Notes under the pieces: generated by a model
Database searches by the model: none
What the model saw: only the letters and a program-made list of their open reading frames with translations
What the model was told of the DNA's origin: nothing
Source of the DNA: an uncultured Desulfobulbus sp.
Lineage (GTDB): Bacteria > Desulfobacterota > Desulfobulbia > Desulfobulbales > Desulfobulbaceae
Assembly: GCF_963664075.1 (NCBI RefSeq)
Contig: NZ_OY760916.1
Span: forward strand, 186,001 to 250,000
Direction of reading: 5' to 3'
DNA length: 64,000 bases
Made by a program: the position numbers and the translations under genes
Part shown: positions 28,619 to 56,690 of the stretch, piece by piece
How positions within the stretch are numbered: position 1 is the first letter of the stretch
Layout: each line of letters starts with the position of its first letter

Positions 28619-28695
28619 GGGCCTATAGCTCAGTTGGCTAGAGCCACCGGCTCATAACCGGTCGGTCCCTGGTTCGAGTCCAGGTAGGCCCACCA
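28619..28695 (+). tRNA. tRNA with CAT anticodon (probably tRNA-Ile2, otherwise elongator tRNA-Met)
   Basis: A 77-base cloverleaf. Acceptor GGGCCTA pairs with TAGGCCC, the D-loop is AGCTCAGTTGGCTAGAGC, the anticodon stem-loop is CCGGCTCATAACCGG with CAT, the T-arm is CTGGTTCGAGTCCAG, and CCA is encoded. CTCATAA with a strong anticodon stem fits the isoleucine tRNA whose C34 is changed to lysidine, but Met cannot be excluded by eye. Confidence 0.93.
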
Positions 28696-45889: not shown

Positions 45890-45924
45890 TGCTCGTCTCA
45901 AGCCCAGTAGCTTTTTCAAATACT

Positions 45925-46001
45925 GGCGATGTAGCTCAGATGGTTAGAGCATACGGCTCATATCCGTAGTGTCCGGGGTTCAATTCCCTGCATCGCCACC
46001 A
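45925..46001 (+). tRNA. tRNA-Met (CAT), target gene of the integrative element
   Basis: A 77-base cloverleaf. Acceptor GGCGATG pairs with CATCGCC, the D-arm is AGCTCAGATGGTTAGAGC, the anticodon arm is TACGGCTCATATCCGTA with CAT, the T-arm is CGGGGTTCAATTCCCTG, and CCA is encoded. The form fits elongator Met. Its 3' part from 45981 is a copy supplied by the inserted element, since the same 25 bases recur at 56598-56622. The tRNA stays intact. Confidence 0.95.
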
Positions 46002-46005
46002 TTTA
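45981..46005 (+). repeat. attL core: left direct repeat of the integrative element
   Basis: 25 bases starting CAATTCCCTGCATCGCCACC and ending ATTTA are identical to 56598-56622. The repeat covers half of the T-loop, the acceptor strand and CCA of the tRNA, the usual crossover region for tyrosine integrases. Confidence 0.95.
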
Positions 46006-46035
46006 ATAGGTTGAAACTGTTCAACCTCCATATAG

Positions 46036-46075
46036 AGACCTGGATTCAATCATTTGAGTCCAGGTCTTTTCTTTT
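46036..46075 (+). terminator. Element-borne terminator after the restored tRNA
   Basis: Arms AGACCTGGATTC and GAGTCCAGGTCT have one mismatch and an 8-base loop, then TTTTCTTTTT. It replaces the chromosomal terminator that was displaced to the far side of the element. Confidence 0.8.
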
Positions 46076-46096
46076 TGTGCCTCTCCTCGTTTAAAA

Positions 46097-46129
46097 GTGA
46101 CACTATTTTTGACACTAAAAGTGACACTA
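46097..46129 (+). repeat. Left arm-type integrase sites: three 9-bp repeats at 12-bp period
   Basis: GTGACACTA at 46097-46105, TTGACACTA at 46109-46117 and GTGACACTA at 46121-46129. The same word occurs twice with the same period just inside attR. They lie between attL and the integrase start, so they may also control the integrase promoter. Confidence 0.8.
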
Positions 46130-46158
46130 CTCGACGGTACAGCCTCTTGGAGTTCTCC

Positions 46159-47571
46159 ATGGAAGCGTACCTTATCAAGAACGCAATCGGTATTTATCAA
46201 TTTCGCCGCTTTGTTCCTCAAGATTTAGTTGTTATAGTTGGAAAGCGTGAGTTGCGGCGTAGTCTTAAGACGCGTTGTTCTCGGCAAGCTGCGCATTTGT
46301 GCCGCATGTATGCGGTCGAATGCGAGAACTATTTTCGATTCTTGCGAGAGCAGATGAGTAAAAAAAGCGAATTTGACAGCTGGGCGGCTCTTTCTCATCC
46401 AAAACCACTGCCGCCGTATGCCGTTATCAAAAACAATCAGATAACCGTTGACCCACGGTTCCAGGAGCTCGAAGATCGTATAAAAGCTTCCCTCGCACAA
46501 AACGCCGACGCGGGCGCAATCGTTCAACCTCCGAGCGGTTCCGTTGAAACGGTTTTCATGAGTAAAATCTTTACTGAATACTTAAAGGATCGTACTGCGC
46601 ATAAGTGGACGGATGCAGCGACGAGTGAGCCGTACGTGGATTCATGTAATTTGTGGTTGAAGATTGTCGGTGATCGAACATTGGCGTCGTACACGTATCG
46701 AGATGCGGAGGCGTTTCGAGATGGTTTGTTGAGGGTGCCGCCGCGTTGGTTGCGAGATGCCAAGCTGCGTTCGAAGTCCTTTAAGCAAGTGAGTTCGATG
46801 GCTGGTGAATGCATGCATCCGTCGACGGCTCGTGAGCATATGCGGCGTATCGCGAATTTTTTTGCATTTGCGATGGCTAGAGGTTTGACGGACAAGCAGA
46901 TTTTCACGGATGTGTTCGTCCGAGTCGAGCATTCGTCGTATGAGTCGTTTACGCTCGAGGAGCTTCAAAAGCTTTTTTCATGGGAGAATTTTGGGCGCTT
47001 CCAGCGGCGAAACAAGCCGTCGCATTATTGGGTTCCGTTGATTGCGTTGCATAGTGGCATGCGCATGGGGGAGATTTTTTTTCTCACGGTTGAGAGTGTG
47101 AAAAAGAGTACTGACGGATTTTGGTACTTTGATATTGCTCAGAATGTGAAGAATGCGCATTCGATACGACCGGTGCCGATACACTCGAAACTGCTTGAAC
47201 TTGGATTTTTGGAGTTTGTTGAGTCGAAGACGGAGCGTTTGTTTTCTGAGTACAAAGACCACAAAGGACAGGCTGGAGTGAAATTTACGGATGCGTTTGC
47301 GAGGTATCGTGCGAGCTGTTTTGATGCTGAGCCTCGTACGAAAGTATTTCACAGCTTTCGTCATACCGTCGCAGAGACTCTACAGATTGCGACGGCGAAG
47401 GCATTGAATCCGTTTATGTATTGTCGGTTGCTTGGTCACAAAACTGGTCAAATCACCGTCGACACGTACGGCGGTGATTATGACGTTCAGCAGTTGCATG
47501 AAATAATTGAGTTGCTCGAATTTAGCGACGTGCTGTCATCGATACCGAGATATTGTGATGTTAGTTGCTGA
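46159..47571 (+). CDS. Tyrosine integrase of the element
   Basis: A 470-residue tyrosine recombinase that should drive integration at tRNA-Met. The N-terminus (KNAIGIYQFRRFVPQDLVVIVGKRELRRSLKTR, in part) is the arm-binding or DUF6538-like domain seen in tRNA-targeting integrases of Proteobacteria. The core has the first Arg in LHSGMRMGEIFFL, HxxR in FHSFRHTVAETL, His in RLLGHKTGQITVDTYGG and the nucleophile Tyr in that last stretch. The ATG at 46159 is chosen because TTGGAG lies 6 bases upstream; the frame is open back to 46054, across the arm repeats. It overlaps the next gene by 14 bases. Confidence 0.92.
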   Translation: MEAYLIKNAIGIYQFRRFVPQDLVVIVGKRELRRSLKTRCSRQAAHLCRMYAVECENYFRFLREQMSKKSEFDSWAALSHPKPLPPYAVIKNNQITVDPRFQELEDRIKASLAQNADAGAIVQPPSGSVETVFMSKIFTEYLKDRTAHKWTDAATSEPYVDSCNLWLKIVGDRTLASYTYRDAEAFRDGLLRVPPRWLRDAKLRSKSFKQVSSMAGECMHPSTAREHMRRIANFFAFAMARGLTDKQIFTDVFVRVEHSSYESFTLEELQKLFSWENFGRFQRRNKPSHYWVPLIALHSGMRMGEIFFLTVESVKKSTDGFWYFDIAQNVKNAHSIRPVPIHSKLLELGFLEFVESKTERLFSEYKDHKGQAGVKFTDAFARYRASCFDAEPRTKVFHSFRHTVAETLQIATAKALNPFMYCRLLGHKTGQITVDTYGGDYDVQQLHEIIELLEFSDVLSSIPRYCDVSC

Positions 47572-48394
47572 AAACGTTGATGGCGTTCGTCGACCAGCTT
47601 TTGAGGCGGAAAAGAGTGAGCGTCCTTTTACGTGTCCGATTTGCAGGAAGACTGTTGTCTTGAAAAAAGGGAGTATTCGAGAGCATCATTATGCGCATGA
47701 ACCTGACTCCAATTGTGAATATGGCAAAGGCGAATCGCAGCTTCATTACAAAGTGAAGCGAGCGCTTTATCTTGCGCTGACGGAGCATCCGAATTGTCAA
47801 AAATGTGAGCTAGAGCGTGTTTTGAAAGGTGTGCGTCCAGATGTTAGCCTTGTGATTAACAATGCGTATGTCGCGATTGAGGTTCAGAAAAGTAATATTT
47901 CAATTGAGGATGTTGATCGGAGGATACGTGCGTATTCAAAATTGGGTATTCATTCGATATGGATTCTGCCAATCTCGTCTCCTAAAATGATGATGCATGC
48001 AGATGATGACGTTTATCGTTCGAAGAATTGGGAACGTCATTTACATCAGCTGCATAAAAATCGGTTGTATTATTGGCATTCGGATGCGTTGGTGATGCCG
48101 TATCATTACGGCGCATTTTACACGTACAAAGCACCAAAAGAGTGGTATGACGAGTATGGAAATGTGCAGTACGGTGGTGATACTTGGGAAGAAAAAAAGG
48201 CGCTGAAAAAGCCGATTCGTTTTCCTGGAAAGCCACTGCATTTGGCTGAAGATTTTGTACCGGTCGTGCTTGCATCAAATGCAAAGCTTTTTCTTGATCG
48301 AAATCAAGCATGGTGGTCGTCGTACTACGACACTTGGGATGCAATTATGCATGACCGATTATTTGATGCGGAAGCTCTAAAAGCTCCTAAATAG
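47558..48394 (+). CDS. CoiA-like nuclease-domain protein
   Basis: A 278-residue cytoplasmic protein. Residues about 28-55 contain CPICRKTVVLKKGSIREHHYAHEP, a zinc-finger-like motif with CxxC and HHxxH. Residues about 65-150 match the CoiA-like/PD-(D/E)XK nuclease pattern: ESQLHYKVKRALY, RPDVSLVINNAYVAIEVQKSNIS with D...ExQ catalytic spacing, then RIRAYSKLGIHSIWIL. CoiA proteins act in competence, but many members are found in mobile elements and may restrict DNA. It overlaps the integrase gene by 14 bases, so the two are cotranscribed, and an 11-bp hairpin follows. Nuclease activity is inferred from the pattern only. A defence or replication role is open. Confidence 0.8.
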   Translation: MLVAENVDGVRRPAFEAEKSERPFTCPICRKTVVLKKGSIREHHYAHEPDSNCEYGKGESQLHYKVKRALYLALTEHPNCQKCELERVLKGVRPDVSLVINNAYVAIEVQKSNISIEDVDRRIRAYSKLGIHSIWILPISSPKMMMHADDDVYRSKNWERHLHQLHKNRLYYWHSDALVMPYHYGAFYTYKAPKEWYDEYGNVQYGGDTWEEKKALKKPIRFPGKPLHLAEDFVPVVLASNAKLFLDRNQAWWSSYYDTWDAIMHDRLFDAEALKAPK

Positions 48395-48409
48395 CAGATA
48401 CAGACTACG

Positions 48410-48433
48410 CCCCAGTTCAGGACTGAACTGGGG
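48410..48433. terminator. Hairpin between convergent genes of the element
   Basis: CCCCAGTTCAG and CTGAACTGGGG are perfect 11-bp complementary arms with only GA between them. It has no T run, but it sits between two gene ends, so it is likely a bidirectional terminator. Confidence 0.55.
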
Positions 48434-48467
48434 TAACTGCTCTACCAATATCGACTGTTTCTCGGAT

Positions 48468-48995
48468 TTAGCTTTGTTGTTCTTCAAGGCTGTCAATGAG
48501 TTCCATTAATTCTTGGAGCGATTTGCTTGAGAAATAGAGTCGTTTCTTTTTGTCTCCGCCGTTTTCTTTTACTGAAAGTTCGCTGAGAAATTTTGAAAGA
48601 TCACGATAGATTTTGTCGAGATCTTCGCCGGCGGCTTTCTGTTCTTCTCGAATTTCACGAAATTGAAGATAGTACTTTCGTTTGAACGCGATAGCTTTCG
48701 AAGATTGCAGCTGTTGTTCAATTTTGAATTGTTTGAAAGCTGCCACGTACGGATACTCGAGGCTAAGCTTTCGTTTTGACTTTTTCGTGTGTTGTACGAC
48801 GTGATTGAGAAAATCAACATACGAAAAATGTGCCCCGAAGAATTCAGTAAAAATGCGCTTCTGGTCGTTCTCGCTGAGTACTGAAAATCGCTGAAGAATT
48901 CGTGCGATTCGTTGTTGTCGATTTGCATCTTCAATGTTCACTGATTTGTCTTTTGCTGGTGAGCGTGGGCGGAGTGCTGGTGCTGAAGATTCCAT
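48468..48995 (-). CDS. Unknown helical protein of the element
   Basis: A 175-residue, highly charged protein without membrane segments. It is predicted to be almost wholly helical: RQQRIARILQRFSVLSENDQKRIFTEFF, then a Lys-rich region with FKQFKIEQQLQSSKAIAFKRKYYLQFREIREEQKA (both in part), and a C-terminal coiled-coil-like ending ELMELIDSLEEQQ. I recognise no family. It is transcribed away from the 324-residue recombinase across a gap with a 10-bp inverted repeat, an arrangement typical of a regulator next to a divergent promoter, but no helix-turn-helix is evident. Confidence 0.6.
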   Translation of the reverse strand: MESSAPALRPRSPAKDKSVNIEDANRQQRIARILQRFSVLSENDQKRIFTEFFGAHFSYVDFLNHVVQHTKKSKRKLSLEYPYVAAFKQFKIEQQLQSSKAIAFKRKYYLQFREIREEQKAAGEDLDKIYRDLSKFLSELSVKENGGDKKKRLYFSSKSLQELMELIDSLEEQQS

Positions 48996-49134
48996 GATGT
49001 GTTCCCGATAATGTTTTGTAAGACCGCGCTTTATGTACGTTCAAAGCGTAAATTACGGCGAGTATTCTCGCATTTTGTTGAAAGTATAGCTTGAAGAAAA
49101 TTAGTAGTTTAAATGTCGATTTCTCCAGAGTAGG

Positions 49135-49165
49135 GGGACTAAAAAGCAAACTGCATTTTAGTCCC
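49135..49165. promoter_or_regulatory. Inverted repeat beside a divergent promoter
   Basis: Perfect 10-bp arms GGGACTAAAA and TTTTAGTCCC lie 11 bases apart. A -10-like TATAAT follows at 49177-49182, so the right arm covers its -35 region. A candidate operator for the rightward recombinase gene. Confidence 0.5.
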
Positions 49166-49206
49166 GGCGGTCATCGTATAATTTAATCAAACACTTATAT
49201 TGCATC

Positions 49207-50181
49207 ATGGCTTTACCGCAAAAAGTTGAGATTTCGCAGAAATTGTTGTTCGTTTTGATGTCATTTAAGAGAGGCTCGGTGCATCATCAGGTGCATCATG
49301 CGTTAGAGACGTTGACGCAACTTGGACAGAGCCGTCATCAAGCTAAGAGAGAAGCTCGTGCGTTGAATGCGAAGACTCCGCAGCAGATTGCGAAGCATAC
49401 TGGGATCTATTCGATACGAACTCGGAGGGCGTACCAGAATAGTTGTGCGGCGTTTTTGAAGTACTGTCGTGATGCGAAGAATTTCGCTTCGGAAGCGGAA
49501 CTTCGACCGACAAAGAATGCGCTCGAGATCACGCCGGAGCATGTCAAAAAGTACCTCTCGGAGCTTGCTGAAAGAGTGCCGAAATCGACGGTCATGGGAA
49601 CGTGCGCAGCGCTGTCGAAGTTCGCGACTGGCCTCAGCAATCTGGATCAGATTGATCGCAATTGGGACGGCGTTTTTAAAGCGTCGAAGCAAGGTTTGAA
49701 GACGCACAAGCCGGAACCAAGAGCGTACATAAATCCGCTTGGATTGATTGACGAGCTGCATGGAGTGTCGAAAATTTTGGCTGAATTGCAGCTCTACAAT
49801 GGTCTAAGAATTCATGAGATGTCGAAGCTGACAGCTGAAAATCTCGGATACAATTTTCTTCATTTGACGAATACAAAGGGCGGTCGATTTCGGACCACGA
49901 TACCGGTACCGAAGGAAACCTTCGCAAGCATCAAGTCAATTATTGAGCTCACTGGTTCTTTTGAGCCGGATCTTCGACGCTATGCGCATGAGCTTCGGAT
50001 TGCCGCCGAGAAATCTGGCCAGCCTGCAACCGGGTCGCATGGACTTCGTCACAACTATGCGCAATCGCGAATGTATGCGCTTGTTGATGGCGGCTTCACG
50101 TATGAAGAGGCCCGAAAAACGGTTGCGCAAGAGCTCGGTCACTCAAGACCCGGAATCGTCGAAACGTATTTGCGTCGATAA
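49207..50181 (+). CDS. Second tyrosine recombinase (Integrase_1-like, 324 aa)
   Basis: A 324-residue recombinase. The N-terminal 115 residues are a SAM-like DNA-binding domain (KHTGIYSIRTRRAYQNSCAAFLKYCRDAKNF, in part). The catalytic part has Arg in LQLYNGLRIHEMSKL, HGLRHNYAQSRM (HxxR), ELGHSRPGIVETYLRR (His and Tyr). This layout is like integrase-domain proteins carried by integrative conjugative elements and is distinct from the element's own integrase. A TATAAT lies 25 bases ahead of the ATG and no Shine-Dalgarno is seen, so it may be nearly leaderless. It ends one base from the convergent third recombinase. Its target site is unknown. Confidence 0.88.
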   Translation: MALPQKVEISQKLLFVLMSFKRGSVHHQVHHALETLTQLGQSRHQAKREARALNAKTPQQIAKHTGIYSIRTRRAYQNSCAAFLKYCRDAKNFASEAELRPTKNALEITPEHVKKYLSELAERVPKSTVMGTCAALSKFATGLSNLDQIDRNWDGVFKASKQGLKTHKPEPRAYINPLGLIDELHGVSKILAELQLYNGLRIHEMSKLTAENLGYNFLHLTNTKGGRFRTTIPVPKETFASIKSIIELTGSFEPDLRRYAHELRIAAEKSGQPATGSHGLRHNYAQSRMYALVDGGFTYEEARKTVAQELGHSRPGIVETYLRR

Positions 50182-50182
50182 C

Positions 50183-50743
50183 TCAGAGTTCGTATTTCAT
50201 GGGGAGTTCGAGTACTTCGGTGTCGTCGATACAGGCGTATCGGAGTGTTTCGCGCATATTGCGGTGGTTGAGTGCTTTTTGGAGAATTTCGAGTGGTGCG
50301 CCGCCGTGTTTTCGTTGGCCGTAGACGAATGTCTTGCGCAATGTGTGTGTGCCGAAGTTTCCTTGTAGTCCGAGCCATTCAGCCCATTGTTTGATGAGCG
50401 CGTAACCGCTTTGGTATGTGAGTGCTTTACCGCGGTTGGTTCCTTGAAAAATTGGTTCGTCGGCGTGATAGGTCGGGTTGGCTGCAAGCAGTTTTTCAAT
50501 TGCGTCGTGCATCGTTGTGTTGATGACGACAGCTCGTCGTTTTCCTGTTTTTTGTTCTTGAATTGTGAAGTGGTCGCCGACGGCGCGATTTTTGACATCG
50601 CTTACTTTTAAGCGAATGAGGTCGCTGAAGCGAAGGCCGCAGTTGATGCCGATGACAAAGAGCGCATAATTTCTCGGATGGTCCGAAAGGTGTTTTCGAA
50701 GTCGTGCGATGTCGTCTAGATCTTTGAACGGCTGAACATTCAT
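50183..50743 (-). CDS. Third tyrosine recombinase, catalytic domain only (186 aa)
   Basis: A 186-residue recombinase of the small FimB/FimE size class, lacking the N-terminal core-binding domain. Catalytic residues are all present: Arg in GINCGLRFSDLIRL, Lys region in EQKTGKRRAVVI, HxxR in HTLRKTFVYG, His in LNHRNMRETLRYA with the Tyr in that same stretch. The ATG at 50743 is preferred to 50758, since GAGG sits 7 bases upstream. A 40-bp perfect palindrome overlaps the region just upstream and may be its operator or recombination site. It is tail to tail with the 324-residue recombinase. Confidence 0.87.
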   Translation of the reverse strand: MNVQPFKDLDDIARLRKHLSDHPRNYALFVIGINCGLRFSDLIRLKVSDVKNRAVGDHFTIQEQKTGKRRAVVINTTMHDAIEKLLAANPTYHADEPIFQGTNRGKALTYQSGYALIKQWAEWLGLQGNFGTHTLRKTFVYGQRKHGGAPLEILQKALNHRNMRETLRYACIDDTEVLELPMKYEL

Positions 50744-50757
50744 GGGCGTACCTCTCA

Positions 50758-50797
50758 ACTAGTATGTTTGTGTTTGTAGCTGTACAAACATACTAGT
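50758..50797. repeat. Perfect palindromic site upstream of the third recombinase
   Basis: 14-bp arms ACTAGTATGTTTGT and its exact complement lie around a 12-base spacer. The size and symmetry resemble a recombinase core site or operator. A related palindrome lies at 50852-50882. Confidence 0.75.
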
Positions 50798-50851
50798 GAG
50801 AAGTTGGGCTGTCCGAATTTAGCAGTTTAGCGGGTTTTGCTGGGTGTTCGA

Positions 50852-50882
50852 ACTAGTATTTTTTGGGTCAAAAAGTACTAGC
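50852..50882. repeat. Second ACTAGTA palindrome at the primase gene end
   Basis: ACTAGTATTTTT on the left matches the inverse of AAAAAGTACTAGC on the right with one or two mismatches. It shares the outer ACTAGTA with the palindrome at 50758-50797. It could be a second binding site or the primase terminator. Confidence 0.55.
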
Positions 50883-53518
50883 TACTCCTGGACGAGGTCT
50901 GTGATTGGTTGTTCGAAGATCTCTTTTTTGATGACGACGCAAGAGACTTTTTGGCCGTTGATGATGGCGAGTCCAAGTGATGTGCGTTTCGTCATGGATG
51001 GTGGTTGAATGAGCCAGCCTCGGCTTTTCCATTGTGACACAATGTTTTGTGTATCATAGCCGTCGCCGAGTATTTTGGTGAGGCTTCGAAAGAGGATTGC
51101 GAGGTTTCCAGATTTTTGGAATTCGCCGTGATGTTCATGTGAGATGCCGTTGGTTACAAATTGTTCGCGATGTGCGGTAACATAGTCTCGGAGTTCTTGA
51201 AGCGCACGTTCTGGAAGGAGCGCGGCGCTTTTCATGATAAGCGCTTTTTGCCAGTGGTCGAAGATGGCGTTTCCAATGGCGTCAACGAAGTCTTTCGGCA
51301 AGAGTTGATGTTTGTAGAAAATTGAGCAGGCCGTGAGCGCCGCTGCGTAGTATGGCCATTGGCGGTCGATGAGCATGCGTTCTCCGCCGTTTGCTCGTTG
51401 AAGGAGTGCTTGTCGGCCTTTTTCAAAAGATTCTCGGAGTTCGGCAAGTTGGCCGTTGTTGAGAATGTCGGCGATTTTTTGGACGTACATGCGGCCCAAA
51501 TGTCCGAAGTTCGATTCAAGTACCAATGGCACATTTTTGAGCACGTCTTTCAGTTGCTCGGTATCGGTGAAGCCTTCGAATGGGGGGTCGGCAATGGTGA
51601 CAATTCGTGCGTTGCCGCCGTCGTAGCTGAACTTTGTTGCGAGGTCGACTTCGGACGTGATGAACACGACGGAGCGGACTTTGGTTGTTTCGCGAAGTGT
51701 GCCGTCTGGGTTGCATTTGGTTGCGGAGGCGGCATTGCCGACGGTATAGACGAGTTTGGTCACTTTTTCGTCAGATTCGCTTTGGGCGTCGTCGAAGCAG
51801 AGTGGCAAGTCTTGGTTGAAGTTGAGAAGTTGCATAATACCGGGAAGGCTTGCCGAGTTCATTTGACAGACAAGTGGTGCCGTACCTTCTGGAATGGACT
51901 GATAGAACGAGGACAAAATCATATGCGATGATCGCGTTTTGCCGGTTCCAGATTGTGAGGCAATGTTGACGACAAATGGAGGGACACCGACAAGATGCGG
52001 AAGAAGCGGCGAGACATATGCGAACGCGAAAGCCGTTAGAAAGCTCGGACAAACACGCATTGGTTCGAGGATTGCTTTGTACCAAGTGTCGAAGTCGCCT
52101 TTTTGCGTGTACGCTTGAGAGATTGCCGTGAGTGGACCACCCGGTTCGATCAGCTTGATAGTGTCGTCATACGGCACGAATGCGTATTTGTCGTTGTGTT
52201 GAATCCAGCATGTTGTTGAGGCCGTTTGTTGGAAGGCTTCACGAATTCGGTAAGCGCAATCTTGGAGGTAGTTGCAAAATTCTTGAAAGTCTTTTTGGCG
52301 GACTTCAATTGAGGTCTTACAGATGACTTCTTCGACAAGCTTGCCGGTCGTCATGATTGCGCCTCGTGCGACCGTAAGTTCGCTGTAGGTTCCAGACTCA
52401 CGAAGAAGCCATTTGATGGTAACTCTTTCGAACTTCGTATGAACATCGCGTTCGCATCGCAAGACGTACACCGGCAACCGACAAATTTGGTGCTCGTACT
52501 CTTCGGTTTCGTCTTTCTTTGATTTCCTTACTTTCCTATAAACGCCGTCCTCTCGTAAGATGTATGGCTCTGGTATGAAGGCTCCGTCGCGTTCCCAAGG
52601 GGTGAGCGCGAAGATGCCATCATTGGCATACGCATCGGCAATCTCATCGAGTACGTCATTGAAGTCAACGGCTCGGCCTTGAGGTCTTGGCAAGTGCAAG
52701 AAGACGGTGCGTCCGTCTCCGAGAAGCCGTACGGCAAGTCTCCTTGCGCAGCGTTCGCCGATGCCGTCAAGATCTCGATCCGCCCAGAGGTGGACGATTT
52801 TGAAGTGTTCTGGGACTTGGAGTTCCGCGAAGTTTGAAACTCGGATGGCGGACCAGACGGTGTCATTCGCGCAACTTGCTGGAAGTTTTTGATGAACCGA
52901 GTGGGCGTTAATCGGTCCTTCAGCGATATGGAGTGTCTCAGATGAGCCGTTGTGGATGCAAATATGACATCCTTTTGAGTCGCCGAGGATTCTTTTCGGA
53001 TTCTCTATTTCCGCATAGCCGTCGTACTCGTCATTGAGAAAGAATCGATGAATTCCGCGCTGTGTGTTGGTGGCATCGTCGATGCTCCAAAGTAGGCCGT
53101 CGAATTCTTGGTCAAGATCATGAATTTTGAGATTGCTGGATTCGCGGAGGGAGGGAACCTCACGAAAGTCAAGCCCTCTGGATTCGAAATAAATGTTAGC
53201 GAACAGCTTCGGTGAGCGTGCGCCATTCCACAGCTGCTGCCACATTGGCGTATACTTTGGCGGCAAATATCTTTTGGCGACAAGTGCTTGATATGCTCGA
53301 TGCTCGCCGGTTGCGTCGCAGCGATAGCAGTGGACGACGACGCCGGTTTCCGTAACCGTCAGTTTACATGACGGATTCTGGTCTTCGTGATCATCACATG
53401 GACATTGAATGAGGTAGCCGTCTCCGGCTGGTTTGCCGTTGAAATCAGCGATGATTTTGTCGGCTTGTTCTTGAAAAGTTGATGTAACATTTGGTGGCTT
53501 TATGGTATCTATTGACAT
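50882..53518 (-). CDS. Primase/Toprim protein with DUF927-type ATPase
   Basis: An 878-residue replication protein. Residues about 37-70 form a CHC2-like zinc finger (C39-P-C41-DDH44 and HC64-YR-C67). Residues about 195-300 are a Toprim primase core: E200 in LHIAEG, D247-x-D249 in WADRDLDG. Residues about 490-760 are a DUF927-like helicase/ATPase: Walker A SQSGTGKT (521-528) and Walker B LPLCFDDAQ (571-579). Such primase-helicase fusions prime and unwind DNA in phages, plasmids and satellites, often recognising iterons at their own origin. An iteron array lies upstream of the gene, beyond a nested IS. No separate Rep was found, so this is probably the element's initiator. Confidence 0.88.
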   Translation of the reverse strand: MSIDTIKPPNVTSTFQEQADKIIADFNGKPAGDGYLIQCPCDDHEDQNPSCKLTVTETGVVVHCYRCDATGEHRAYQALVAKRYLPPKYTPMWQQLWNGARSPKLFANIYFESRGLDFREVPSLRESSNLKIHDLDQEFDGLLWSIDDATNTQRGIHRFFLNDEYDGYAEIENPKRILGDSKGCHICIHNGSSETLHIAEGPINAHSVHQKLPASCANDTVWSAIRVSNFAELQVPEHFKIVHLWADRDLDGIGERCARRLAVRLLGDGRTVFLHLPRPQGRAVDFNDVLDEIADAYANDGIFALTPWERDGAFIPEPYILREDGVYRKVRKSKKDETEEYEHQICRLPVYVLRCERDVHTKFERVTIKWLLRESGTYSELTVARGAIMTTGKLVEEVICKTSIEVRQKDFQEFCNYLQDCAYRIREAFQQTASTTCWIQHNDKYAFVPYDDTIKLIEPGGPLTAISQAYTQKGDFDTWYKAILEPMRVCPSFLTAFAFAYVSPLLPHLVGVPPFVVNIASQSGTGKTRSSHMILSSFYQSIPEGTAPLVCQMNSASLPGIMQLLNFNQDLPLCFDDAQSESDEKVTKLVYTVGNAASATKCNPDGTLRETTKVRSVVFITSEVDLATKFSYDGGNARIVTIADPPFEGFTDTEQLKDVLKNVPLVLESNFGHLGRMYVQKIADILNNGQLAELRESFEKGRQALLQRANGGERMLIDRQWPYYAAALTACSIFYKHQLLPKDFVDAIGNAIFDHWQKALIMKSAALLPERALQELRDYVTAHREQFVTNGISHEHHGEFQKSGNLAILFRSLTKILGDGYDTQNIVSQWKSRGWLIQPPSMTKRTSLGLAIINGQKVSCVVIKKEIFEQPITDLVQE

Positions 53519-53593
53519 GCATATACCTCAATCGGTTCGAGGTTGATCTTACGGGCAAAGGATTTTTGCGGAATCCTTTGCCCGCTGTTTTTT

Positions 53594-53869
53594 TCATGAT
53601 CGGACTTTTCGTCCGAGTGTCTTGCAAAGGTCGTCGAAGCGACCGTCTCGCCAAGTTTCCAAAAGACAATATTCAAGAAGTCTTGTCGGTTTGATACCGT
53701 TCGCGATTTTATCCTCTAGCCAAGTGATGAATTTCGGATCAGTGACAGAGAGCATAAATACGGCTGGATCGACGATTTTATTTTTCGTCTTGCGGCGTCG
53801 TATACCGTTGTGCGCATACGTGTGATTGAACTGAACTTTTTCACGGTTTTCGGCGTCAGAAGCGCTCAT
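53594..53869 (-). CDS. Small unknown protein next to primase
   Basis: A 91-residue basic protein (KVQFNHTYAHNGIRRRKTKNKIVDPAVFMLSV, in part, then DPKFITWLEDKIANGIKPTRLLEYCLLETW). It has a likely helix pair in the second half. I recognise no family. It lies 75 bases ahead of the primase on the same strand and could be a DNA-binding accessory or an excisionase-type protein, but no clear helix-turn-helix is visible. The nested insertion sequence sits 55 bases upstream of its start and probably separates it from its original promoter or origin. Confidence 0.6.
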   Translation of the reverse strand: MSASDAENREKVQFNHTYAHNGIRRRKTKNKIVDPAVFMLSVTDPKFITWLEDKIANGIKPTRLLEYCLLETWRDGRFDDLCKTLGRKVRS

Positions 53870-53924
53870 ATCGGTCCTCCAGATTCGGTTGAAAGTTAAT
53901 TAGATATTGGAATGAAGAAAAATT

Positions 53925-55616
53925 GTAACTACTCACACCCTCTAAAAAAAGCTCAAAGCCAAATAAATAACTTGACAGGTTTTTACCGGAATTTTTTCCA
54001 ATAGCCAGGGATGTCAACAAAAATGCCCATCAACGCGCTTGGTCGTCTCTAAATCGTTCCATTATTGCGTTCCGATAGCAAACAGATGCGATAGCGCTCA
54101 ATCGTTCAACTCAGGGGCACACAGGAGGCCGAAAAAAGCCATGGTATAGTAAACCCATGGGAACAGTAAACAAAATAAGGGTACGCGAAGAAGTCGATCT
54201 CCTCAAACAGGAATTTGAACAGCTTTGTTCCACCGGCAAAGTTTCCTCTGAGATACGGGTCCTGGTCAACAGCCTGCTGGTTGTTGTCGAGTTGATACTC
54301 TCTATCTTTCTTGAGAAGACAACGCGCAAGGGAAACAAAAACTCGAGCATTCCTTCTTCGCAAACCGAGAAAGACGAAACCGCTACCAAGCACTGCACCG
54401 CTACCGGCAGGGGGAAACAAGTCAATGGGCGGGTTGGTAATACACGCGTCAAAGAATCGGTCACCACTGCTCAGGTCGAGGTGTGTGATATCTGCGGAAT
54501 GGTGCTGGATAGCGTTGCATGCCAGGGGCATGAACGTCGGACAAAAATCGACATCGTTTTTGAAAAAGTTGTCGAGCACATTGACGCAGAAATAAAGCAA
54601 TGCCCCAATTGTGAAGCAACAGTCAAGGGGCGTTTTCCTGACGATATGCCGGGTAAGCTGCAGTACGGCAATGGGCTTAAAGCGTTTGCCATTCATTTGG
54701 TTATCAGCCAGATGGTCGCTTTAAACCGGGTTCAAAAACAGATAGCAGCCATGATCGGTAGCGTAATCTCCGAGGCCAGCCTGCTCAAATTTGTTTTGCG
54801 CTTGCACCAATCACTCGAAGCATGGGAATCCAGAGCTATTGATAGGCTACTGCAGGCTCCATCCCTGCATGTGGATGAAACCTCGTTTCGGGTTGAAGGG
54901 AAGAATCACTGGATTCACGTCTATTCTTCCGGCGAAACAACCCTGAAAGTACTGCATCGAAAGCGGGGCAAGGAGGCAATCGAAGGATTGAATATCATCC
55001 CTCGGTATGGCGGGGTGATCATCCATGATTGCTGGGCATCATATTTATCCTACGACCATTGCGGTCACGGACTTTGCGGCTCGCACCTTTTGCGAGAGTT
55101 GACGTTTGTCGTTGACTCTAACCAATACCGGTGGGCCCGCAATCTAAAAGCTGTGCTCCAGCAAACGTGTCGTACGGTGGCTCAACGTCCGGAAAAATGT
55201 CTTACCGAACGGGAGTATGCCAACCTGCAGAAGCGCTACCGTAATATCCTTACGCGTGGCAGCAAGGAGTTGCCCAAGATCCCTCCAAAAACCCAAGGGA
55301 AGCGCGGCAGGATAGCCAAATCCGATGCGCACAATCTTTGGGAGCGATTACAAAAGCATGAGGCGGCAGTTTTGCTTTTTGCCAAAGAACCACATGTACC
55401 GTTCACCAACAACAGAGCGGAAAGGGATCTTCGCATGGCTAAGGTAAAACAGAAAATATCCGGTTGTTTTCGACGTAAACAATATGCCCAGGCTTACTGC
55501 AGGATTTCAAGTTACCTGCAGACCATGGCAAGCCAGGGGATCAATCCTCTTGTCGCTATCCAGTTGGCACTGGCAGGAACTCTGCCTGATGCCGAAGAAT
55601 AGGGGTGAGTAGTTAC
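53925..55616 (+). mobile_element. IS66-type insertion sequence, 1692 bp, with exact 8-bp target duplication
   Basis: The left end GTAACTACTCACACCC (53925-53940) and the inverse of the right end, GTAACTACTCACCCCT (55601-55616), match at 14 of 16 positions. GAAAAATT occurs immediately outside both ends (53917-53924 and 55617-55624), the 8-bp duplication expected for IS66. Only the large transposase is present; the tnpA and tnpB accessory genes of many IS66 elements are absent, as in the short IS66 subgroup. A TTGACA box lies at 53972-53977. Confidence 0.95.
54157..55602 (+). CDS. IS66-family transposase
   Basis: A 481-residue transposase. A coiled-coil N-terminus is followed by a zinc-binding region (C110-x2-C113 and C149-x2-C152, in EVCDICG and QCPNCEA). 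The DDE core has D240 (LHVDETSFRV), D291 (IHDCWASY) and Glu in TNNRAERDLRMAKVKQKISG (about 424). The ending YLQTMASQGINPLVA is typical for the family. The frame is intact and ends at the edge of the right terminal repeat, so the element may be active. Confidence 0.96.
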   Translation: MGTVNKIRVREEVDLLKQEFEQLCSTGKVSSEIRVLVNSLLVVVELILSIFLEKTTRKGNKNSSIPSSQTEKDETATKHCTATGRGKQVNGRVGNTRVKESVTTAQVEVCDICGMVLDSVACQGHERRTKIDIVFEKVVEHIDAEIKQCPNCEATVKGRFPDDMPGKLQYGNGLKAFAIHLVISQMVALNRVQKQIAAMIGSVISEASLLKFVLRLHQSLEAWESRAIDRLLQAPSLHVDETSFRVEGKNHWIHVYSSGETTLKVLHRKRGKEAIEGLNIIPRYGGVIIHDCWASYLSYDHCGHGLCGSHLLRELTFVVDSNQYRWARNLKAVLQQTCRTVAQRPEKCLTEREYANLQKRYRNILTRGSKELPKIPPKTQGKRGRIAKSDAHNLWERLQKHEAAVLLFAKEPHVPFTNNRAERDLRMAKVKQKISGCFRRKQYAQAYCRISSYLQTMASQGINPLVAIQLALAGTLPDAEE

Positions 55617-55661
55617 GAAAAATTTTTGAAAAAAAAATTATTTTTCAAATACAGAGAAGCC

Positions 55662-56120
55662 GGTGTATGACCGCATATACCGCAACGGTAAACGGGTGTA
55701 TGGCCTCATATACCGGCTGAAGAACGATTATAAGAAAACCGCAGAAGAGCTCAAAGAGACACAAAAGAGACGCAAACGGGTGTATGGCTAGTGTATGGCC
55801 GGTGTATGACCAGGGAGAGCCATACACCGAACTAAGTTGCTGAAATGATTTTAAAAAAGCTCAAAAAGTCGTCCCAGGTGTATGGCTTCAAAAAAACATA
55901 AAAACTAGGGGGAGAAAAAAACCATGGAAAAAAGAGAGAAGCTTGCGCGCGACGGAATGTCTTTCTAAAGCCATACACCCCATATACCTAACTAACTTTA
56001 ATAGTATATATATTATTATTATTGTTATATATTTTTAAGAACCGGACAGGTGTATGGCTAAAAAAAAGTCATACACCTGTCCATATACTGCATACACCTC
56101 TGGAACCTCTTTTCATACAC
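55662..56120. repeat. Iteron array (GTGTATG, both orientations), putative replication origin
   Basis: Twelve exact GTGTATG/CATACAC words occur in 460 bases. Forward copies start at 55663, 55696, 55780, 55791, 55802, 55878 and 56050; reverse copies at 55821, 55972, 56070, 56091 and 56114. Four variants CATATAC start at 55674, 55707, 55981 and 56082 and often pair with an exact copy as inverted pairs. Context extends to GGTGTATGGC. Eight copies lie left and four right of an AT-rich segment (about 55985-56040). 56044-56058 and 56068-56082 form a 15-bp near-perfect inverted repeat. Iterons flanking an AT-rich core are the layout of plasmid and satellite-island origins. Confidence 0.8.
55985..56040. 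other. AT-rich segment within the iteron array (candidate unwinding element)
   Basis: Almost pure A/T, including a TATATATATTATTATTATTG run near 56006, placed between two iteron clusters. Easy melting fits a DNA-unwinding element. Confidence 0.6.
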
Positions 56121-56134
56121 CTTGTAAGCTTTTC

Positions 56135-56294
56135 CGACGACGCGGGCGCCCGCGACGACGCGGGCGCCCGCGACGACGTCGTCGTCGACGCGCCTCGGCG
56201 TTTTTAGGTGCGCACGCATGCACGGGCGCCTAAAAACGCCGCCGGGTCGTCGTCGTCGCGCGCGTACGTTTTTAGGCGCGTATGAGCGTACGCG
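56135..56294. repeat. GC-rich tandem repeat and palindrome block
   Basis: An 18-bp unit CGACGACGCGGGCGCCCG occurs twice in tandem (56135-56152, 56153-56170), with a partial third. Then a stem pairs CGGCGTTTTTAGG (56196-56208) with CCTAAAAACGCCG (56229-56241), and a further stem pairs CGCGTACG (56261-56268) with CGTACGCG (56287-56294). GTTTTTAGG recurs in the last loop. The block is far richer in GC than its surroundings and has no supported gene. Confidence 0.8.
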
Positions 56295-56507
56295 TACACA
56301 CGGAGAAGAGCCGCATTCGCTCTCTTTTCATGGTTTTTTTGGAAACGTGTTGGAAGGTTACAGCGATCTATGAAAAGGACTTTGTCTTTTCGAAACGAAA
56401 GCCAAAATCAACTGCGAGGAATTACCGAGTCGCCGTCTAATCCAATACATCTGGAATTTTTCACGGTCATTTCAGGCTTAAAGTGGCTATACTGGGAGCC
56501 ATAAAAA

Positions 56508-56528
56508 GTGACACTATTTGTGACACTA
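56508..56528 (+). repeat. Right arm-type integrase sites: two 9-bp repeats at 12-bp period
   Basis: GTGACACTA at 56508-56516 and 56520-56528, same orientation and period as the three copies near attL. A degenerate CTGACAT follows at 56530-56536. Confidence 0.8.
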
Positions 56529-56597
56529 ACTGACATCCGTCGAGTGAGCAAAAGCTCACAAAAACAATGGATTGAGAGAGGTCTGGTGGCATGGTTC

Positions 56598-56622
56598 CAA
56601 TTCCCTGCATCGCCACCATTTA
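56598..56622 (+). repeat. attR core: right direct repeat, displaced 3' end of tRNA-Met
   Basis: 25 bases identical to 45981-46005. It is the original chromosomal end of the tRNA gene, now separated from the rest by the element. Confidence 0.95.
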
Positions 56623-56652
56623 TAAGTCCTGAATTTTTCAGGCAATATATAT

Positions 56653-56690
56653 AAAACCCTGCTTTCGTAAGAGAGCAGGGTTTTTCTGTT
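56653..56690 (+). terminator. Intrinsic terminator, probably the original tRNA-Met terminator
   Basis: Perfect 11-bp arms AAAACCCTGCT and AGCAGGGTTTT have a 10-base loop, then TCTGTTTTT. It lies about 30 bases past the displaced tRNA end, the position expected for the tRNA terminator before insertion. Confidence 0.85.

Follow-up and report, generated by a model that had tools for sequence, protein, structure and literature searches.

The stretch of DNA analysed here (the window: 64,000 nucleotides of contig NZ_OY760916.1, positions 186,001 to 250,000, from an uncultured Desulfobulbus sp.) carries an element at 45981-56622 that we read as a replicating integrative element, most likely mobilised by a helper, with the Xer-like tyrosine recombinase rec324 as candidate initiator of its transfer. 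Taken whole, this reading has in our judgement about an even chance of being right; its first part, that the element integrates and replicates, is highly probable. The element is 10.6 kb long and adjoins the tRNA-Met gene at its 3' end, and the 25-bp direct repeat that the earlier note had placed at its borders is exact. The complete target tRNA-Met stands behind groEL, which was read from the sequence.

45925-46001, plus strand: tRNA-Met (CAT), the integration target, its 3' end rebuilt by the element (ARAGORN, Rfam RF00005)
45981-46005, plus strand: attL core (left attachment site), 25 bp, exact repeat
46093-46129, plus strand: putative arm-type integrase sites, left, with TGACACTA at 46098, 46110 and 46122
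46159-47571, plus strand: tyrosine integrase of the DUF6538 type, 470 aa from ATG (PF20172, E 1e-14; PHROG 1, E 2e-25)
56504-56529, plus strand: putative arm-type integrase sites, right, with TGACACTA at 56509 and 56521
56598-56622, plus strand: attR core (right attachment site), 25 bp, exact repeat; the tRNA terminator then follows at about 56623-56690

The left copy of the 25-bp repeat contains the final 21 bases of tRNA-Met, and the repeat is the sole match of at least 14 bases between 45901-46060 and the downstream window. An exact match of 25 bases within 13 kb far exceeds chance. Just inside the borders lies a second pair of repeats, 26 bp long (46093-46118 and 56504-56529, identity 25/26) and built from TGACACTA units spaced 12 bp. 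Within the window this motif is confined to the border repeats, occurring five times on the plus strand and never on the other, and the 26-bp repeats are probably arm-type sites of the integrase. A second tRNA-Met (CAT) gene is located at 28619-28695, with an Rfam score equal to that of the target.

Twelve loci of the genus with a tRNA-Met at the groEL site were examined, and the sequence 3' of the tRNA was compared with window 56623-56690. The post-tRNA stretch and terminator stem align with this segment at eight of them (L158, L159, L161, L165, L166, L168, L169 and L170), with a likeness that is clear in pattern, not in identity, and weaker in L165 and L168. Two further loci (L160 and L162) have a different post-tRNA sequence, which was left unaligned, and two (L157 and L167, in genomes G014 and G017) carry a homolog of the window integrase after the tRNA (28% identity in G014, 27% in G017). 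An integrase beside the tRNA, border repeats of the tRNA 3' end and comparison sites free of the element together identify a tRNA-targeted integrative element, as the earlier note had proposed. By eye, L168 (genome G003) has frames resembling a different integrase after its terminator.

Because other integrase-bearing elements sit there in the genus, the groEL-tRNA-Met site is a hotspot. G014 shows a 22-base copy of the tRNA end about 19.8 kb onward, followed by a 676-aa open frame that matches the window integrase in two stretches. The G014 and G017 elements share the target tRNA and a homologous integrase (27-28%) with the window, but no match to rec324, the primase or CoiA was found in the stretches searched (L055 and L187 of G014, L057 of G017).

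Replication is indicated by a primase-helicase gene and a repeat-rich region, now separated by an insertion sequence (IS).

50882-53518, minus strand: replication protein, 878 aa, with a weak DnaG-type zinc ribbon (CHC2), DUF7146, Toprim_3 (PF13362), DUF927 and Cch HTH_56
53594-53869, minus strand: orf91, a small protein upstream of the replication gene, with no family in Pfam, PHROGs or NCBIfam
53925-55616, plus strand: nested IS66 (transposase at 54157-55602), flanked by the 8-bp duplication GAAAAATT
55657-56120, no strand: origin-like region with iteron cores GTGTATG/CATACAC
56135-56280, no strand: GC-rich palindromes with repeated CGTTTTTAGG(C/T)GC, beside the iterons

The replication protein is a Toprim primase fused to a DUF927 helicase that bears a Cch domain. 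Its matches to PF06048 (E 1e-24) and PF18662 (E 5e-9) identify a helicase of the Cch/SaPIbov1-Rep type, and by sequence it matches the solved structures 8tch (Pathogenicity island protein, E 3e-17) and 5dgk (Active helicase, E 1.5e-6); the NCBIfam SCCmet_Cch1 match reaches 53.5 bits, under the 700-bit equivalog cut-off. Iteron cores occur 12 times in 55617-56134 (518 bp); 2000 shuffles averaged 0.07 cores and yielded at most 2. They lie near the helicase, 5' of its gene and past orf91 and IS66. In the palindromes beside them, a CGTTTTTAGG(C/T)GC-like motif is present three times.

Cch of the staphylococcal cassette chromosome SCCmec is described as a DUF927-containing protein related to the Rep helicase of SaPIbov1, and Rep of the Staphylococcus aureus pathogenicity islands (SaPIs) as recognising iterons via its C-terminal domain (PMC7581432). 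The window module resembles these systems in its DUF927 helicase, Cch C-terminal domain and iteron repeats. In SaPIs, as that text describes them, the iterons lie directly downstream of rep, whereas those of the window are on the 5' side of the gene. Further, the window module has a fused N-terminal Toprim primase and comes with a tyrosine integrase at tRNA-Met, and the element proteins include no product of ccr, mec or packaging genes.

The IS66 falls between orf91 and the iteron region, and its terminal repeats agree at 15 of 20 positions. Because this 1.7-kb insertion with its 8-bp duplication is nested inside, the element without it measures about 8.9 kb, the size given by the earlier note; its G+C content is then 47.2%, compared with 50.5% for the window. 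Two further genes complete the left part of the element.

47558-48394, plus strand: CoiA-family nuclease-like protein (PF06054, PF25164), its start overlapping the integrase stop
48468-48995, minus strand: orf175, divergent from rec324, with no family in Pfam, PHROGs or NCBIfam

We scanned the element proteins against Pfam, PHROGs and NCBIfam with E up to 0.1. These databases support the gene list drawn up earlier (integrase, CoiA, two further tyrosine recombinases, primase-helicase, origin-like region and IS), and the remark that capsid, terminase and coupling genes are missing also holds: among the seven non-IS proteins, which include the family-less orf175 and orf91, no capsid, terminase, classical relaxase or coupling protein gave an above-cut-off or top match. 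A weak NCBIfam TraI match (E 0.004) is limited to the Toprim part of the primase and lies far under its cut-off. No type IV secretion system (T4SS) family was detected among the element proteins, so that the element does not have the secretion system of its own expected of an integrative and conjugative element (ICE).

The replication module raises the question of a phage satellite, similar to phage-inducible chromosomal islands (PICIs) or SaPIs, that combines an integrase with SaPI-type replication and is packaged by a helper phage. We consider this origin quite improbable. The element is near small satellites in size, and a DUF927 relative occurs in Staphylococcus phage PT1028, which we take to be a satellite. 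The SaPIbov1 Rep/Cch lineage of the helicase (PMC7581432) points in the same direction. However, no capsid, terminase or packaging gene was recognised among the element proteins, and scans of viral contigs with the primase and the integrase, as single-protein queries that reach close relatives only, yielded no relative. Phage_portal PF04860 had no match in the genome, although prophages may be present because it was the sole family searched. The rec324 family appears in one viral contig and in 205 genome-contig relatives, a comparison that is weak because the two collections are of unequal size and were scanned with different peptide patterns. The earlier note had guessed at a phage satellite, a conjugative-element satellite or an integrating plasmid; of these, the phage option is the less supported, and the other two form the better half of the guess.

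The transfer part of our reading centres on rec324 and the repeat upstream of it.

49135-49165, no strand: inverted repeat upstream of rec324, a candidate origin of transfer (oriT) or recombination site
49207-50181, plus strand: rec324, Xer-like tyrosine recombinase, 324 aa, with core-binding and catalytic domains; candidate transfer initiator

The rec324 matches to SAM_4 (residues 68-139, E 1.3e-4) and Phage_integrase are both under the Pfam cut-offs, with PHROG 1 at E 6e-13. Residues R201, K224, H278, R281, H312 and Y321 are invariant across 44 aligned sequences, and the catalytic roles that we assign to them are those looked for in MOBM relaxases. AlphaFold2 predicts the structure with confidence (mean pLDDT 92.9). 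The top Foldseek hits of the model, XerA, XerH, lambda Int and Cre, align with it over about 280-360 columns, and their TM-scores to the query are 0.35-0.58. In this model rec324 is a complete recombinase of two domains, one of them core-binding.

Tyrosine-recombinase-like relaxases have been described, namely MobK of pIGRK, TcpM of pCW3 and the proposed MpsA of SGI1. For each, an oriT is described upstream of the relaxase gene, and SGI1 is described as an integrative mobilizable element that carries an iteron replicon of its own (PMC8152469, PMC6414798, PMC9299015, PMC8409611); PMC11389934 calls the three MOBM. As far as those texts describe them, they and rec324 are alike in tyrosine recombinase catalytic residues, an upstream inverted repeat and small carrier elements. 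The parts of the window element equal the SGI1 set in outline: SGI1-type elements also pair an integrase and an iteron replicon with a tyrosine-recombinase-like candidate relaxase, and they are reported to be moved by a conjugative helper (PMC8409611, PMC6414798). Compared with that description of SGI1, the window element has a tRNA target, a Cch-type primase-helicase, no tra genes and no recognised mpsB-like gene. Vibrio strand-biased elements are likewise described as having two tyrosine recombinases, one of them suggested as a possible relaxase; their order, intA-CDS2-intB-CDS4, differs by description from the module of rec324 and its partner presented below (PMC9345347).

rec324 is a recombinase of an unstudied but widespread kind. 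Members of its family are carried by both plasmids and chromosomes, usually with a conserved helical partner next to them. When genome contigs were scanned with an alignment that combined rec324 with four homologs, 205 relatives were confirmed, and 80 of the loci were retained. Of 88 sources that bear rec324, leaving the window aside, 70 have a member of the partner family no more than 2 kb away. This family was grown from one plasmid protein to 72 reading frames and unites genes of about 150 aa, mostly divergent, from Deltaproteobacteria with 73-aa genes upstream of the recombinase in Gammaproteobacteria. The partner model is confident and all-helical, with no match in the PDB below E 0.001; a helix-turn-helix label, which would draw on a reading of the motif only, was therefore set aside. 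Plasmids L028, L029 and L067 carry overlapping genes in the order partner, recombinase, membrane coiled-coil protein. These three genes are present on small plasmids of Klebsiella, Aeromonas, Vibrio and Pectobacterium (L067, L028, L029 and L069), all of which are typed non-mobilizable; in L069 two toxin-antitoxin genes separate partner and recombinase. No description of the partner-rec324 module appeared in the accessible text of the open-licence PMC papers searched.

orf175, the gene divergent from rec324, was considered as a partner and rejected: it scores -2.4 bits against the partner profile, and the best of 200 scrambles scores 11.2. Nor does it have a hydrophobic segment of the kind found in four rec324-linked membrane proteins. 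An Acinetobacter relative of rec324 (L066) is also without a partner gene.

One rec324 relative adjoins conjugation genes. In a metagenome-assembled genome (MAG) of Candidatus Desulfaltia (L085, G474:C17), a partner-rec324 pair lies about 1 kb from TraG, TraH, TraC and TrbI-type genes, and this operon is F-type. The draft genome contains no PF03432 or PF08751 match and one short PF07514 match of 23.0 bits, just under the 23.9 cut-off; ten larger proteins elsewhere on the rec324 contig include no relaxase. A second rec324 copy (68%) is present on contig C33 of this genome.

A candidate helper is found in the same chromosome as the element. An ICE-like region of the Trb/VirB type (G000:C1:2185000-2224800; L154, L155) encodes a NikA-like protein, a PF03432 relaxase that we read as MOBP, and VirD4, VirB9, VirB8, TrbL, VirB4 and VirB11-type proteins, together with an integrase and a CoiA_N protein. 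Whether a helper of any kind mobilises the element is, in our view, evenly balanced. The relaxase, NikA-like protein and coupling protein of this region would also allow a passive element to be moved by the resident ICE via a copied oriT, with rec324 serving some other role. This route seems to us even less probable than satellite packaging: over about 40 kb, the element and the ICE-like region share no word longer than 13 bases, and 20 shuffles gave maxima of 13-17.

That lack of oriT mimicry is one of several observations that weigh against transfer started by rec324. MOBM relaxases reportedly have no core-binding domain (PMC8152469, PMC9299015), but rec324 keeps one, as its sub-cut-off SAM_4 match and two-domain model indicate; the same feature sets it apart from MpsA, by description and not by sequences. 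Both the partner and the membrane coiled-coil gene are missing from the window. When the surroundings of rec324 were searched for homologs of 12 T4SS and mobilisation proteins, one of 93 sources had them, with a further weak VirB11 match in L113. A pooled Pfam scan of 105 neighbours at 14 rec324 loci, taken as the best 25 of 85 families, does not thereby exclude relaxases. In Candidatus Desulfaltia the coupling-protein match is on another contig, and a relaxase may lie off the rec324 contig because the T4SS extends to the contig end in a draft that may be incomplete. pGLOV01, which bears a rec324 homolog, is typed MOBP by PLSDB. Although 175 of 186 records of rec324 plasmids are typed non-mobilizable, such typing is weak proof of a relaxase, since control plasmids with Rop receive it nearly as often (1096/1281); those with rec191 receive it in 661 of 1670 cases. 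Because of the core-binding domain, the rare T4SS neighbours, pGLOV01, the Rop control and the lack of oriT mimicry, we consider it doubtful, if possible, that rec324 is the relaxase of the element.

The same facts bear on an integrating plasmid without a transfer function, in which the integrase integrates, Cch-like replication maintains the circle, rec324 and rec191 resolve multimers or control copies, and spread occurs by transformation or rarely. The features involving rec191 are as follows.

50183-50758, minus strand: rec191, short plasmid-type tyrosine recombinase (PHROG 216, E 1e-43), with plasmid homologs
50757-50798, no strand: inverted repeat with 13-bp arms and a 12-bp spacer at the rec191 5' end, a candidate rec191 site

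rec191 also matches Phage_integrase (E 1e-19), and its relatives occur on 1670 plasmid records of every mobility type. Most likely it is a multimer resolvase that acts on the inverted repeat found at the 5' end of its gene. The integrating plasmid, which we regard as unlikely but worth keeping in view, agrees with the modelling of rec324 as a complete two-domain recombinase, with the plasmid location of rec324 homologs, several of them viewed with ParA or toxin-antitoxin genes, with the non-mobilizable typing of 175 of 186 records and with CoiA as a competence-family protein. However, two resolvases would be redundant on 8.9 kb, and one rec324 member adjoins a conjugation operon. The rec324 family is also accompanied by a helical partner that is conserved and, on some of the plasmids, by a membrane coiled-coil protein, which would be unusual company for a resolvase.

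Under our reading of a replicating, helper-mobilised element, the DUF6538 integrase would excise the element and reinsert it at the 25-bp tRNA-Met end via the arm sites. The excised circle, we infer, would be copied from the iteron region by the self-loading primase-helicase of the Cch/SaPIbov1-Rep lineage, and rec191 with its inverted repeat would most likely resolve multimers. New cells would be reached most likely via a conjugative helper, for which the ICE-like region of the same chromosome, with its T4SS genes, relaxase and coupling protein, is a candidate. rec324 may open the strand at a site within 48996-49206, in analogy to MobK, TcpM and MpsA.

The exact block is a singleton in the searched data, since outside its own genome only partial primase matches were found. 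Primase matches came from 2 of the 55 relatives and from 16 of the 395 genomes of the phylum, its own genome counted in both; the longest of the other matches has 26% identity across residues 343-871, and no record covers 80% of the primase among the 838 plasmid and 7 phage records matched. A partial echo of the block occurs in G433 (L033), where a DUF927 relative lies about 3.4 kb from a rec191 relative (41%), and relatives of rec191 and rec324 occur together in one Planctomycetes contig (L100). Besides rec324, 22 of 81 loci have an integrase-like gene, as detected by a profile grown from the window integrase.

Two elements are relatives at the level of modules. A Deltaproteobacteria MAG (L075, JAJXWO010000013.1) carries a bounded 18.9-kb tRNA-Met element, with a 24-bp repeat at 1783 and 20664, that contains a DUF6538 integrase, a membrane coiled-coil gene (by eye), a partner, a rec324 homolog (37%) and a DUF5906 protein. 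A tRNA-Leu element in a Desulfocapsa MAG of the same order as the window (G054; L070, the same contig as L030) has an integrase homolog (24%), a DUF927-HTH_56 helicase, a membrane protein, a partner and a rec324 homolog (38%). No attachment repeat of at least 13 bases was found there in 20 kb, and a 12-base minimum over about 60 kb gave a single inverted internal match, not a tRNA repeat. The earlier statement that the element matches no family is thus correct for the exact block in the data searched and not for its modules. Similarly, the statement that it has no relaxase stands for classical relaxases, but rec324, there an extra recombinase, belongs to a family that possibly does that job.

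Among integrative elements and small plasmids, many lack a known transfer route. On a broader proposal, which we hold a shade more tentatively than the role of rec324 in this element, rec324 would found a hitherto unrecognised family of proteins that initiate conjugation and descend from complete Xer-like recombinases, and together with its partner and often a membrane coiled-coil protein it would form an independently evolved relaxosome. If so, many small "non-mobilizable" plasmids of Klebsiella, Vibrio, Aeromonas and Deltaproteobacteria would be mobilisable, as would many relaxase-less integrative elements, and a rec324 relative would serve as relaxase in at least one F-type conjugation system, that of Candidatus Desulfaltia. 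Should the rec324 family initiate transfer, a large "non-mobilizable" set would gain a mechanism that can be tested. Otherwise, the element remains a clear example of replication of the SaPI/SCC type, found here in an integrative element that belongs to the Desulfocapsa order and has a defined site.

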